From Hutsoniella sourekii ATCC 700629 (GTDB taxonomy: Bacteria > Bacillota > Bacilli > Lactobacillales > Aerococcaceae), in assembly GCF_000518205.1 (NCBI RefSeq), contig NZ_JADD01000004.1, forward strand, positions 62,001 through 126,000: 64,000 nt of DNA, given 5' to 3'. The translations under genes were made by a program, and so were the position numbers. The notes beneath the pieces are model-generated. The model worked only from the letters and a program-made list of their open reading frames with translations, did not search any database and had not been told where the DNA came from. Positions 15,624 to 22,605 of this stretch are shown piece after piece. The first letter of the stretch is position 1; each line of letters starts with the position of its first letter.

Positions 15624-15648
15624 CAACCAGCATAGGAGTGTGTGGGAA
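15624..15648. repeat. 25-bp inverted repeat, right copy
   Basis: Exact reverse complement of 3357-3381. It lies in the gap after the lipoprotein stop and ends a few bases before the integrase ribosome site, so it may act on integrase expression or on DNA architecture. Confidence 0.85.
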
Positions 15649-15668
15649 CTGAAAGGAGATACACAATA

Positions 15669-16789
15669 TTGTCTATTCAAAAACAAGCAAATGGTACCTA
15701 TACAGTTCAAGTTCATCATGGTTACAATAAATTAGGTAAGAGACGGCAAAGCAAAAGAAGAGGAATAGCAACTCTTAAAGAAGCAAAATTAATTGAAGCA
15801 TATTTAATAGAGAATAATCCAATAAAGGAAGAAGACTCTATAACCTTTTTGGAAGTATATGAAATCTGGCTTGACCAATACAAACAAGGCGACGTTAAAG
15901 AAAGTACGATTCAAAAAACAACTAAAGCTTTTGAAAACCACATATTACCTGTTTTGGGTGATAAAAAAATAGATGAGATAACTAAGTTTCAGTTGCAGGA
16001 ACTAGTCAATATGTGGGCTAAGCAATTTGTCAACTACAAGGCACACATAGTGAATTACATGAATAAAGTGTTCGATAAAGCATATAAACTAGAGTTAATA
16101 GATAAGAATCCCACCGACTTTTTGGACTATCCTAAAGCCAAAGAGTCAACTAATGAAGGGTTAAAATTTTATGACAAAGACCAAGTAAACAAATTACTTA
16201 AAGTAATCTCTGAAGAAGATTCAACAAGATGGTTAGCAACCTTTAGATTGTTTATTTATTCTGGTATGAGATCTGGAGAATTACGGGCACTAACGTGGAG
16301 TGATGTAGATTTTGAGAATAATGAAATCAATATCAACAAAACTCTATCAATTGGTGAAGGCTATAAAATGGTTATTCAAACCCCTAAATCAAAAGCTAGT
16401 CAAAGAGTTATTACTCTAGATAAGGATACAATGCTAATCCTTAAGAGCTGGAAACTTGAACAACAGCAGTTGTTTTTAAAATTAGGAAAAAAAATACAAG
16501 TGAGATAGTTTTTACAGGTATTGAAAGCCTGACTTATATGAATAATCCAAGTGTAAGTAGAAACCTAAAAAAATTTCAAAAAAAAGCTGGATTACCTCAA
16601 ATTAATCTTCATTCTTTAAGACATACCCATTGTTCACTACTCTTTGAAGCAGGTGTTGGAATGGAAGTTGTTAAAGAACGATTGGGTCACTCAAATATTG
16701 AAACCACAATGGATGTTTACACTCATGTAACAACTAAAAGACATGAGGACACAGCAAGAATTTTTGCTGAAAGCATGGAGATCTCATAA
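15669..16789 (+). CDS. int: Tyrosine integrase, coded in two frames joined by a -1 shift
   Basis: The start is a TTG at 15669, nine bases after AAAGGAGA. The first frame runs to a TAG at 16506 and holds the arm-binding and core-binding domains and the first catalytic Arg (SGMRSGELRAL). The second frame (16490-16789) holds HSLRHTH, LGHSNIETTM and the nucleophile in DVYTH. A -1 shift in the A8 run at 16487-16494 would yield one 373-residue enzyme, the normal length. Either the shift is used (slippage) or the gene is broken by a one-base deletion. It would catalyse insertion at ssrA. Confidence 0.8.
16487..16493 (+). other. Slippery A-AAA-AAA heptamer in the integrase
   Basis: Eight A residues (16487-16494) lie so that A_AAA_AAA is in the zero frame, the correct register for -1 slippage. 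The zero-frame stop follows 13 bases later. No clear downstream stem or upstream stimulatory ribosome site was found. Confidence 0.5.
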
Positions 16790-16990: not shown

Positions 16991-17006
16991 ATATGGAGAT
17001 GAGGGG
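16991..17006. repeat. Right attachment repeat, overlapping the ssrA 3' end
   Basis: ATATGGAGATGAGGGG matches 3276-3291. On the minus strand it supplies the last bases of the T-arm and the 3' acceptor strand of tmRNA, so the gene remains intact after integration. Confidence 0.9.
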
Positions 17007-17357
17007 AATTGAACCCCTGTCCAGACACCTCGATCACCGGTGAATCTACGCCAATAGTCATCTCTATTTAATATTTAATTGATGATTAGCCGATTAACAA
17101 GGCTTCATCATCAACGAGTCTGATTGTCTTCTTCCAGCTCCTCCAGACGGAAGGAGTTTGGCGTATCCCACTAATTTGAGACTGGTTATCCGGTACATGG
17201 GCGATACCGGGCCAATCTTCGCCCGCAGGTTTTACGCTGCTAAAGCGAAATTATTGTTTGTTTTTGCAGTTATATTTAACTGTAGCGTTTTTAGGAAGAC
17301 GCTGCCTTCCTGGCGCATCACTGGCTCGTCAGTGCCTGTCGAAACCAGAGCATCCCC
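16994..17357 (-). ncRNA. ssrA: tmRNA
   Basis: About 364 bases. It rescues stalled ribosomes by adding a degradation tag. The 5' end GGGGATGCTCTGGTTTCGACAGG-type sequence and the 3' end CATCTCC form the seven-pair acceptor stem (one G-U), and the T-arm GGGGTTCAATTCCCC is present. The tag frame reads AKTNNNFALAA then TAA. The terminal CCA is not encoded at the 3' end. The satellite element is integrated exactly at this 3' end. Confidence 0.95.
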
Positions 17358-21257: not shown

Positions 21258-21285
21258 TTGACATTTATGAGATATGGATTATAAT
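21258..21285 (+). promoter_or_regulatory. Promoter of the Trp leader and trpX-like gene
   Basis: TTGACA (21258-21263) and TATAAT (21280-21285), both consensus, are 16 bases apart. Confidence 0.85.
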
Positions 21286-21317
21286 ACGATTAACAATTAA
21301 TAAAAGGAGGCCTCATC

Positions 21318-21371
21318 ATGATTCCATTCACACTGAATAATATGAATAGCTGGCAAGGCTGGCATAGGTAG
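21318..21371 (+). CDS. Tryptophan leader peptide
   Basis: The 17-residue peptide MIPFTLNNMNSWQGWHR ends in TAG and has two Trp codons three apart near its end. AAAGGAGG lies seven bases before the ATG. Downstream RNA can fold into alternative hairpins ending in a terminator. Ribosome stalling at the Trp codons when tryptophan is scarce would favour the antiterminated form, as in classic attenuation. Confidence 0.8.
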   Translation: MIPFTLNNMNSWQGWHR

Positions 21372-21444
21372 GTTGTAGACTTGGACATGTCCATGGATAC
21401 AGCCCAGTTTATACTGCAGACTGTATCTATGAGGCCCCAGTTAC

Positions 21445-21486
21445 GGACCCCGTAGATCTTATCTTACGACTATGGGGTTCTTTTTT
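21445..21486 (+). terminator. Attenuator terminator upstream of the trpX-like gene
   Basis: An 11-bp stem (21445-21455 with 21470-21480, two G-T pairs) is followed by T6. Competing upstream pairings exist: GATACAG/CTGTATC around 21397-21427, and GGCCTCAT over the leader ribosome site with ATGAGGCC near 21429-21436. Confidence 0.75.
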
Positions 21487-21526
21487 GTACCCTATAGTCT
21501 GTCAATCCAGTAAAGGAGTACAAAAA

Positions 21527-22504
21527 ATGAAAAAATTAATTCAATTAATATTAGTTATTGCCCTATCTCTTGGTCTAATTCCTGCTTCAGCTGCTCGGGC
21601 AGAAGCTCCGAAACCCTTGAAAGCCGCTATTGTGACCTTCGTCTCCCACCCTTCCCTGGATACGATTGTCCAAGGAATCCATGAAGGACTTGAAGAAGCG
21701 GGTTACAAGGAAGGCGACAACCTAACCACTGACTTCTATAATGCCAATGGAGATATCAATCTACTAAGTTCTATCGCTGATCAAGCCATTGAAGGTAAGC
21801 CAGATATTATCTATGCTGTGACAACACCTGTTGCCCTTGCCTTCCAAGCGGCTAAGACCGATATCCCTGTTGTCTTTACAGGGGTCACTGACCCACTTGG
21901 AGCAGGCTTGGTTGATAGCTTAGAAGAACCGGGTGCTAATTTATCTGGTATCAGCAACTATGTCTCTCTGGACCAACAGTTTGAACTGGTAAAAAAATTA
22001 ACCCCTGATGCCAAAAAAGTCGGATTCCTCTATAAGACTAGCGAAGACAGTGCCTTATCCGAAGTTGAAGAAGCCAGTGAAGTAGCTAAGAAGTATGGCT
22101 TAGATAGTGAAATTGCCGGTATCAGTTCTACCAATGAGATGCAGATGGTAGCAGAAGATCTAGCCAGTAAAGTGGATGTCATCTATGTGGGATCTGATAA
22201 TTTAATTGCAGCTGCCTTTGATTCCTTGCTGGACGCCACTGATAAAGACCAAGTGCCAGTCTACTCTTCCGTTGAATTGATGATCGGACAAGGTGCTCTA
22301 GCTGGAGCGGCTATTGAAGAGATTAGCTTGGGACACTTGGCCGTTAAATTCGGTGAGGAAGTCTTAGCCGGAGATGATATTGCTAAGAAGCCAGTTCAAT
22401 TTATTGATGACCTAACAGTGATAGTTAACCAAGACACTGCCGACCGTTTAGCAATCAAGGTACCCGAAGGATTGGCTGAAGTGACCGTCAATACTAATAA
22501 TTAA
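21527..22504 (+). CDS. trpX: ABC transporter substrate-binding protein, TrpX-like
   Basis: 325 residues from the ATG at 21527, set by AAAGGAG. A Sec-type signal peptide (KKLIQLILVIALSLGLIPASAARA) is followed by the ABC_sub_bind fold (AAIVTFVSHPSLDTIVQGIHEGL, VFTGVTDPLGAGLV). There is no lipobox cysteine. The family includes TrpX, the presumed tryptophan-binding protein of the trpXYZ system. The Trp leader supports that substrate. No permease or ATPase gene follows; a strong terminator does, so the partners must be elsewhere or absent. Confidence 0.8.
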   Translation: MKKLIQLILVIALSLGLIPASAARAEAPKPLKAAIVTFVSHPSLDTIVQGIHEGLEEAGYKEGDNLTTDFYNANGDINLLSSIADQAIEGKPDIIYAVTTPVALAFQAAKTDIPVVFTGVTDPLGAGLVDSLEEPGANLSGISNYVSLDQQFELVKKLTPDAKKVGFLYKTSEDSALSEVEEASEVAKKYGLDSEIAGISSTNEMQMVAEDLASKVDVIYVGSDNLIAAAFDSLLDATDKDQVPVYSSVELMIGQGALAGAAIEEISLGHLAVKFGEEVLAGDDIAKKPVQFIDDLTVIVNQDTADRLAIKVPEGLAEVTVNTNN

Positions 22505-22554: not shown

Positions 22555-22605
22555 AATAACCGTTTCACCTGTAAAGACTGATGACCTTCAGGTGAAACGG
22601 TTATT
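22555..22605. terminator. Bidirectional terminator between trpX-like and phosphoesterase genes
   Basis: A perfect 17-bp stem (22555-22571 with 22589-22605), A-rich before and T-rich after. Confidence 0.8.

Follow-up and report, generated by a model that had tools for sequence, protein, structure and literature searches.

How is the gene of a TrpX-like binding protein controlled when it stands without its transporter partners, and is the RNA ahead of it peculiar to a single locus? The question arises in Hutsoniella sourekii, a bacterium of a Lactobacillales family with a genome of 2.07 Mb, from which we analysed a stretch of 64,000 nucleotides (hereafter the window; positions refer to it, and features lie on its plus strand unless stated otherwise). 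A preliminary description of this stretch had proposed a tryptophan leader-peptide attenuator within 21258-22504, and that reading was supported by the parts found at 21258-21504, by the leaders of relatives and by conserved helices. We consider it highly probable that the element is a ribosome-mediated leader-peptide transcription attenuator, and its leader is one member of a widespread family, not a one-off. The computations yielded the parts and their conservation, the covariation of the helices, the fit between leader codons and genes, and a constraint on the last codons that acts at the RNA level.

Each part named in the preliminary description was found at the locus. The sigma-70 promoter, TTGACA-16-TATAAT at 21258-21285, agrees with the consensus at 12 of 12 positions and ranks at the top of the six found (shuffled sequence gave a mean of 3.4). 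A Shine-Dalgarno sequence, AGGAGG (21305-21310, in a part spanning 21305-21316, with the SD region 21309-21316 reading GGCCTCAT), leads into an ORF of 17 codons from ATG to TAG (21318-21371; MIPFTLNNMNSWQGWHR), which contains the expected W-Q-G-W, ends SWQGWHR-stop and has its Trp codons at positions 12 and 15, that is, at -6 and -3 from the stop; relatives carry similar leaders. The terminator has arms at 21447-21455 and 21470-21478 and a T-run with TTCTTTTTT, and was absent from the list of a pattern scanner because its loop of 14 nt exceeds the scanner limit of 8. Folding of the leader gave -63.8 kcal/mol compared with -50.0 kcal/mol for shuffles (z -3.15), with 2 of 200 shuffles being equally good. 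The gene that follows (21527-22504) encodes an ABC_sub_bind solute-binding protein of 325 residues that is TrpX-like, and the terminator reported after it corresponds to a probably bidirectional hairpin, which we read by eye at about 22556-22604, where two convergent genes meet.

The alternative hairpins take the form of an alternation between A:B, B:C, C:D and D:E. Segment A (21372-21377) lies immediately 3' of the stop codon and has its partner in 21398-21403 of segment B (21392-21403), which can instead pair with segment C (21421-21431) across 11 bp. Segment C has two further partners: D, giving the antiterminator 21425-21431 : 21451-21457, and the final leader codons, here called segment 0 (21363-21370), which pair with 21424-21431 in a duplex that extends into the upstream codons. 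Alignment and folding define D (21447-21457) as both the 5' arm of the terminator and the target of C; sequence, alignment and folding define E (21470-21486) as the 3' arm (21470-21478) plus the T-run. A remnant of a further segment, F (21489-21499), was read from the sequence as an imperfect complement of E, and no second terminator was seen 3' of it at the window locus.

Stalling, termination and induction in cells are what we infer from this arrangement. With charged Trp-tRNA plentiful, the ribosome at the leader stop would cover segment A, so that B:C would pair, D would be free for E and transcription would stop at 21486. With charged Trp-tRNA scarce, the ribosome would stall at the Trp codons and A:B would form; C, now freed, would pair with D, and RNA polymerase would enter the binding-protein gene. 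Were the leader left untranslated, segment 0 (aided in the window by the SD) would hold C and the terminator would form again.

Homologous proteins were found in 52 of 60 related genomes, and 84 loci were laid out. Leaders were assigned in 73 of them (34 Trp and 39 Phe/Tyr), and leader type tracked protein family, with 34 of 34 Trp leaders preceding TrpX-like proteins and 39 of 39 Phe/Tyr leaders preceding a second group; these first leaders were selected partly on their aromatic codons, eight being entered by hand after reading, so that only the model-based sets below count as independent. The procedure assigned no leader in 11 of the 84 loci. When these were viewed by eye, parts of the element were visible further upstream in L056 (a near-duplicate of L055), L058, L097 and L113, L078 looked truncated, nothing of the element was seen in L064, L082 and L102, and L054, L062 and L116 were T-box cases. 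The preliminary description had called it odd that no permease or ATPase gene follows. The absence itself is confirmed, as neither lies directly downstream of the window gene and the locus is thus not a trpXYZ operon; the oddness is not, since 21 of the 84 loci are without a downstream permease.

Two RNA models, R1 (Trp) and R2 (Phe/Tyr), were built from alignments A1 (28 of the 34 Trp loci) and A2 (35 of the 39 Phe/Tyr loci) of the sequence 3' of the stop codon, with D:E hairpins taken from the alignments as the automatic search for them was unreliable. The models exclude the leader codons, which therefore played no part in the searches. Within the order, R2 had matches in 264 and R1 in 263 of 395 genomes; in a phylum-wide draw each matched 4 of 398 genomes, three of those for R2 (our own genome included) being from Lactobacillales. 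The only R2 match outside the order (G416, L145/L149, G416:C31:23867-24019) has IFFNNHFR-stop before a sodium-dependent transporter, possibly through horizontal transfer. For R1, a Trp leader was present in 27 of 28 loci and, among the 16 outside the training set, in 15; L300 was too close to a contig end to be judged. The accompanying base-rate count of short ORFs includes true leaders and is not a clean control.

Newly fetched R2 matches outside training followed a short amino-acid-rich ORF in 79 of 80 cases, the sole exception being L221, where no leader ORF was found. A script blind to the residues assigned a leader ORF in 77 of the 80 and typed them as 61 Phe/Tyr, 12 Ile, three mixed branched-chain and one mis-framed (L275), its label 'other' comprising the three branched-chain leaders, the mis-framed ORF and L063. 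Inspection by eye placed L275 and L220 with the Phe/Tyr leaders and L222 with a possible Val type: at the last locus (G031:C28:25997-28263; model match of only E 0.04) a LivJ-like gene follows a leader that ends SVVVVV-stop. Codons for Trp, Phe/Tyr, Ile, mixed branched-chain amino acids and, in one case, Val all occur on this scaffold. Downstream of the 62 Phe/Tyr leaders lie AroE (36), ABC_sub_bind (19), DAHP synthase (3), SBP_bac_3 (3) and AroB (1), and downstream of the 16 branched-chain leaders LivJ-like proteins (7), BCAT (4), threonine dehydratase (2), acetolactate synthase (2) and SBP_bac_5 (1), the enzyme names in the latter set being taken from representatives. On these assignments the last leader codons fit the next gene, Phe/Tyr going with aroE, aroF and aromatic-type binding proteins and Ile/Leu/Val with ilv, liv and BCAT. 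Separately, SBP_bac_3 domains were repeated inside single long ORFs behind the Phe/Tyr leaders of L203, L216 and L220.

The same device recurs in the H. sourekii genome, whose five ABC_sub_bind genes lie at four places, all four with the device. A search for trpYZ elsewhere in the genome, as the preliminary description had advised, located them on contig C6, where a second Trp leader (WQSWHR-stop) precedes a full trpX-permease-ATPase operon. On C32, FYYGYFR-stop is followed by two binding proteins, a permease and an ATPase, and on C12 FFSSNFR-stop by a lone binding protein. Model R2 also matched IIISIIIR-stop ahead of a LivJ-like gene and, weakly (E 0.04), NFYRFFR-stop ahead of a binding protein whose family was judged by eye. 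Elsewhere in the window, a tmRNA on the minus strand (16991-17357, 190 bits) lies near an integrase-like ORF (15642-16789) that by eye seems split in two, possibly a tmRNA-integrated element.

A:B and C:D are mutually exclusive with B:C and D:E, and in A1 as in A2 all four helices show conservation with covariation. The cells paired amounted to 91.3% and 94.8% in A1 and to 91.4% and 88.9% in A2, compared with at most 54-56% in a slid control. Nascent RNA was then folded to just before E with the ribosome footprint forbidden (31 of the 35 A2 rows were scored). For the 31 Phe/Tyr rows the mean of C:D was 0.14 without ribosome, 0.76 with the ribosome stalled and 0.15 with it at the stop; for the 28 Trp rows the corresponding means were 0.48, 0.63 and 0.33, the stalled value exceeding the stop value in 19 rows and falling below it in three. 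At the window itself, C:D at equilibrium was 0 free, 0.21 stalled and 0 at the stop when the SD region was left out. With the SD region included it was 0.00 in every state, because a pairing of the SD with a stretch called C+ wins, and the fold is sensitive, as a mask one base longer or shorter at the final Trp codon alters the result. The shift with ribosome position is clear in the Phe/Tyr rows, smaller in the Trp rows and weak at the window, where it goes in the predicted direction without the SD region and vanishes with it; its strength there is unproven, and a further ribosome, bound at the SD, may be required.

C+ (ATGAGGCC, 21429-21436) is the exact complement of the SD region 21309-21316 over 8 nt, as the preliminary description had pointed out, and gating of the leader SD is possible. 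This is not a general feature of the family: a partner stretch equally good for the window SD was found in none of the 33 other Trp loci, and SD:C+ pairing averaged -9.1 kcal/mol for matched and -8.2 kcal/mol for mismatched pairs. A relay in which E pairs with F to give a second terminator has weak support, as the F of the locus itself ranks in the top 10% of partners at 12 of 35 loci in one set and at 7 of 24 in the other.

The end of the leader is constrained as RNA as well as peptide. Ser at -4 is encoded by AGC in 69 of 69 Phe/Tyr, 8 of 8 Ile and 12 of 13 Trp leaders, and Arg at -1 by AGR in 78 of 78 Phe/Tyr and 9 of 9 Ile leaders and, as AGA, in at least 19 of 20 Trp leaders, whereas Tyr and Ile codons vary. 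Pairing of the leader tail with C beats synonymous recodings at the 5% level in 63 of 68 Phe/Tyr, 11 of 12 branched-chain and 17 of 31 Trp loci; in the window the duplex reaches -20.5 kcal/mol, compared with -11.8 kcal/mol for recodings, and is matched by 0.5% of them. The pairing of segment 0 with C is nested with A:B and would force termination whenever the leader is untranslated.

These codons bear on whether the peptide could itself be the sensor. TnaC provides the precedent for an arrest peptide, and by analogy nascent WQxWHR would sense free tryptophan at the stop codon instead of tRNA charging. Such an arrest would likewise mask A and lead to termination at high Trp, WQxW(H/R)R is conserved between genera, and its Gln at -5 (CAA in 24 of 24 Trp leaders) has no codon-based role, neither codon sensing nor segment 0 pairing giving a clear reason for it. 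The invariant Ser and Arg, however, are fixed at the level of their codons (AGC and AGR) and pair with C, so that RNA pairing explains their invariance; the Phe/Tyr, Ile and Val versions have no arrest motif in common; and the stop codon itself varies among 32 Trp leaders (TAG 23, TGA 5, TAA 4). We regard an arrest peptide as improbable here, and a ribosome that reports tRNA charging as the better account.

We give little credence to a riboswitch, in which the RNA itself would bind the amino acid or a relative of it, as speculated for the trpB motif. That motif (RF04312) entered the literature among the strong candidates for riboswitches and has an expression platform (PMC11109978); the window matches it weakly, at 30.1 bits with a gathering threshold of 59. 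Its authors left a classic attenuator open (PMC11109978), and the features described above tell against direct binding: SD-led short ORFs abut the RNA with codons that match the downstream gene, branched-chain versions included, segment A pairs with B right after the stop codon, and inspection of A1 and A2 by eye showed no loop sequence conserved independently of the helices. The RF04312 threshold was passed by seven Trp-leader loci, all with WQ leaders (L053, L059 and L117 of 20 sources scanned; L060, L065, L066 and L074 of another 20), and the window element is a divergent relative of the motif. Matches to RF04312 at low threshold were set aside as mostly chance, two of the eight opened in our own genome (on C3 and C6) being on real leaders.

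A T-box, to which uncharged tRNA-Trp would bind without an intermediary as at trpX of S. suis and S. pneumoniae (PMC9382623), is very hard to credit and was rejected for the window, where the RF00230 search had no match and the leader RNA is merely about 200 nt long, even though the trpDCFBA locus of the same genome (L287 3934-4452, G000:C8) carries a tandem pair of T-box-like elements (86.7 and 74 bits, below the gathering threshold of 93). With a leader-peptide attenuator besides these elements, the genome would sense Trp-tRNA charging in two ways; neither trpE nor trpG was recognised within the stretch fetched around trpDCFBA. Among the 84 loci, T-boxes exceeded the threshold in two (L054 and L062), and L116 was T-box-like by eye.

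The identity of the binding protein is a separate matter. The protein is TrpX-like, and its identity as TrpX is weaker than the preliminary description had stated: it scores 301 bits with the TrpX model NF041285 of NCBIfam, whose curated cut-off is 390, and none of the five ABC_sub_bind proteins encoded in the genome reaches this cut-off. At the positions of S. suis T108, A127, T129, D152, N233 and Q273 it has T, G, T, N, N and E, and thus departs from the TrpX ligand pocket, compared with T, A, T, D, N and Q in the tryptophan-bound S. pneumoniae structure 3LFT. The position of Q273, named as a possible specificity residue (PMC9382623), is occupied by Gln in 3LFT and in 36 of the 37 proteins behind Trp leaders, and by Tyr or Phe in all 57 behind Phe/Tyr leaders. 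The sole Glu is that of the window protein, which also has Asn at the D152 position. Because of the missed cut-off and the unusual pocket residues, the ligand of the window protein is uncertain, and we make no claim that it binds tryptophan.

Lone binding proteins (examples are the window, L008, L052, L055, L081, L093 and L125) were non-Asp at the D152 position in 12 of 20 cases (Asn 9, His 2, Ser 1), compared with 1 of 45 for proteins from operons with a single binding protein and 12 of 46 for those from operons with several; the ligand of lone proteins may have drifted. A lipobox cysteine was seen in none of the N-termini read (window 21527-22504, L006, L007 and L008), which is unusual for a Gram-positive bacterium.

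Taken together, the results make it fairly likely that one ancestral RNA relay serves as a general amino-acid attenuator of Lactobacillales, with a fixed scaffold, last codons that are read twice, and retargeting by codon exchange (Trp, Phe/Tyr, Ile, Leu, Val), and that the trpB motif and sRNA_2410 are the same device, the two transcripts of the latter reflecting the two terminators. The trpB motif (RF04312, SRC-39-1, NAR 2024) has in common with the window the B:C hairpin, the terminator, an antiterminator in the right shoulder of P1 and a place upstream of amino-acid ABC transporters; it differs in that its authors presented it as a candidate riboswitch whose ligand is unknown, and its model begins after the leader ORF (PMC11109978). 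The term 'leader peptide' is absent from the main text of that paper. Enterococcus sRNA 2410 (RF02863, Sci Rep 2017), whose threshold was passed by 16 of 20 aroE/aroF-type loci, coincides with Phe/Tyr leaders before aroE/aroF, whereas the account of it files it as a small RNA and names no cis role (PMC5593968). Its namesake in E. faecium, 195 nt long, was detected as two transcripts in RNA-seq and on Northern blots (PMC5593968). On our reading sRNA_2410 would be a prematurely terminated leader, which would account for a short RNA, and two terminators, for which the E:F evidence is weak, could account for two transcripts. Both entries are best read as ribosome-sensed leader-peptide attenuators. 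That reading offers an answer to a question left open in print, namely what the trpB motif senses, and under it an RNA now catalogued as a small RNA would count among terminated leaders.

In E. coli trpL, as in other leader-peptide attenuators, the position of the ribosome over regulatory codons selects the antiterminator or the terminator, and the same principle applies here. The present device differs from trpL in its extra pairing segment, in A:B plus C:D being the read-through state and in the pairing of the last leader codons with C. S. suis trpXYZ likewise has a TrpX-family binding protein under tryptophan control, there through a tRNA-binding T-box ahead of a full operon (PMC9382623), whereas the window has a translated leader ahead of a lone gene. 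Firmicutes have other leader-peptide attenuators, described for His (PMC2965389, PMC9413887) and, at S. aureus ilvD (PMC5794164) and as Listeria Rli60 (PMC5864092), for branched-chain amino acids; Rli60 was also first termed an sRNA or riboswitch (PMC5864092, PMC5794164). In the open-access literature we recognised no published description of an attenuator family with exchangeable codons (subscription journals lie outside this scope), and we propose as new that several amino acids share one scaffold, that its codons are exchangeable, that the end of the leader is double-coded and that the two Rfam entries are this device. The leader codons also allow substrates to be predicted for transporters not yet characterised, and in the present set codons and pocket residue agree. 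Rli60 and S. aureus ilvD each concern one operon, whereas here a single regulatory scaffold serves several amino acids, and its target would have changed through codon exchange across a bacterial order.
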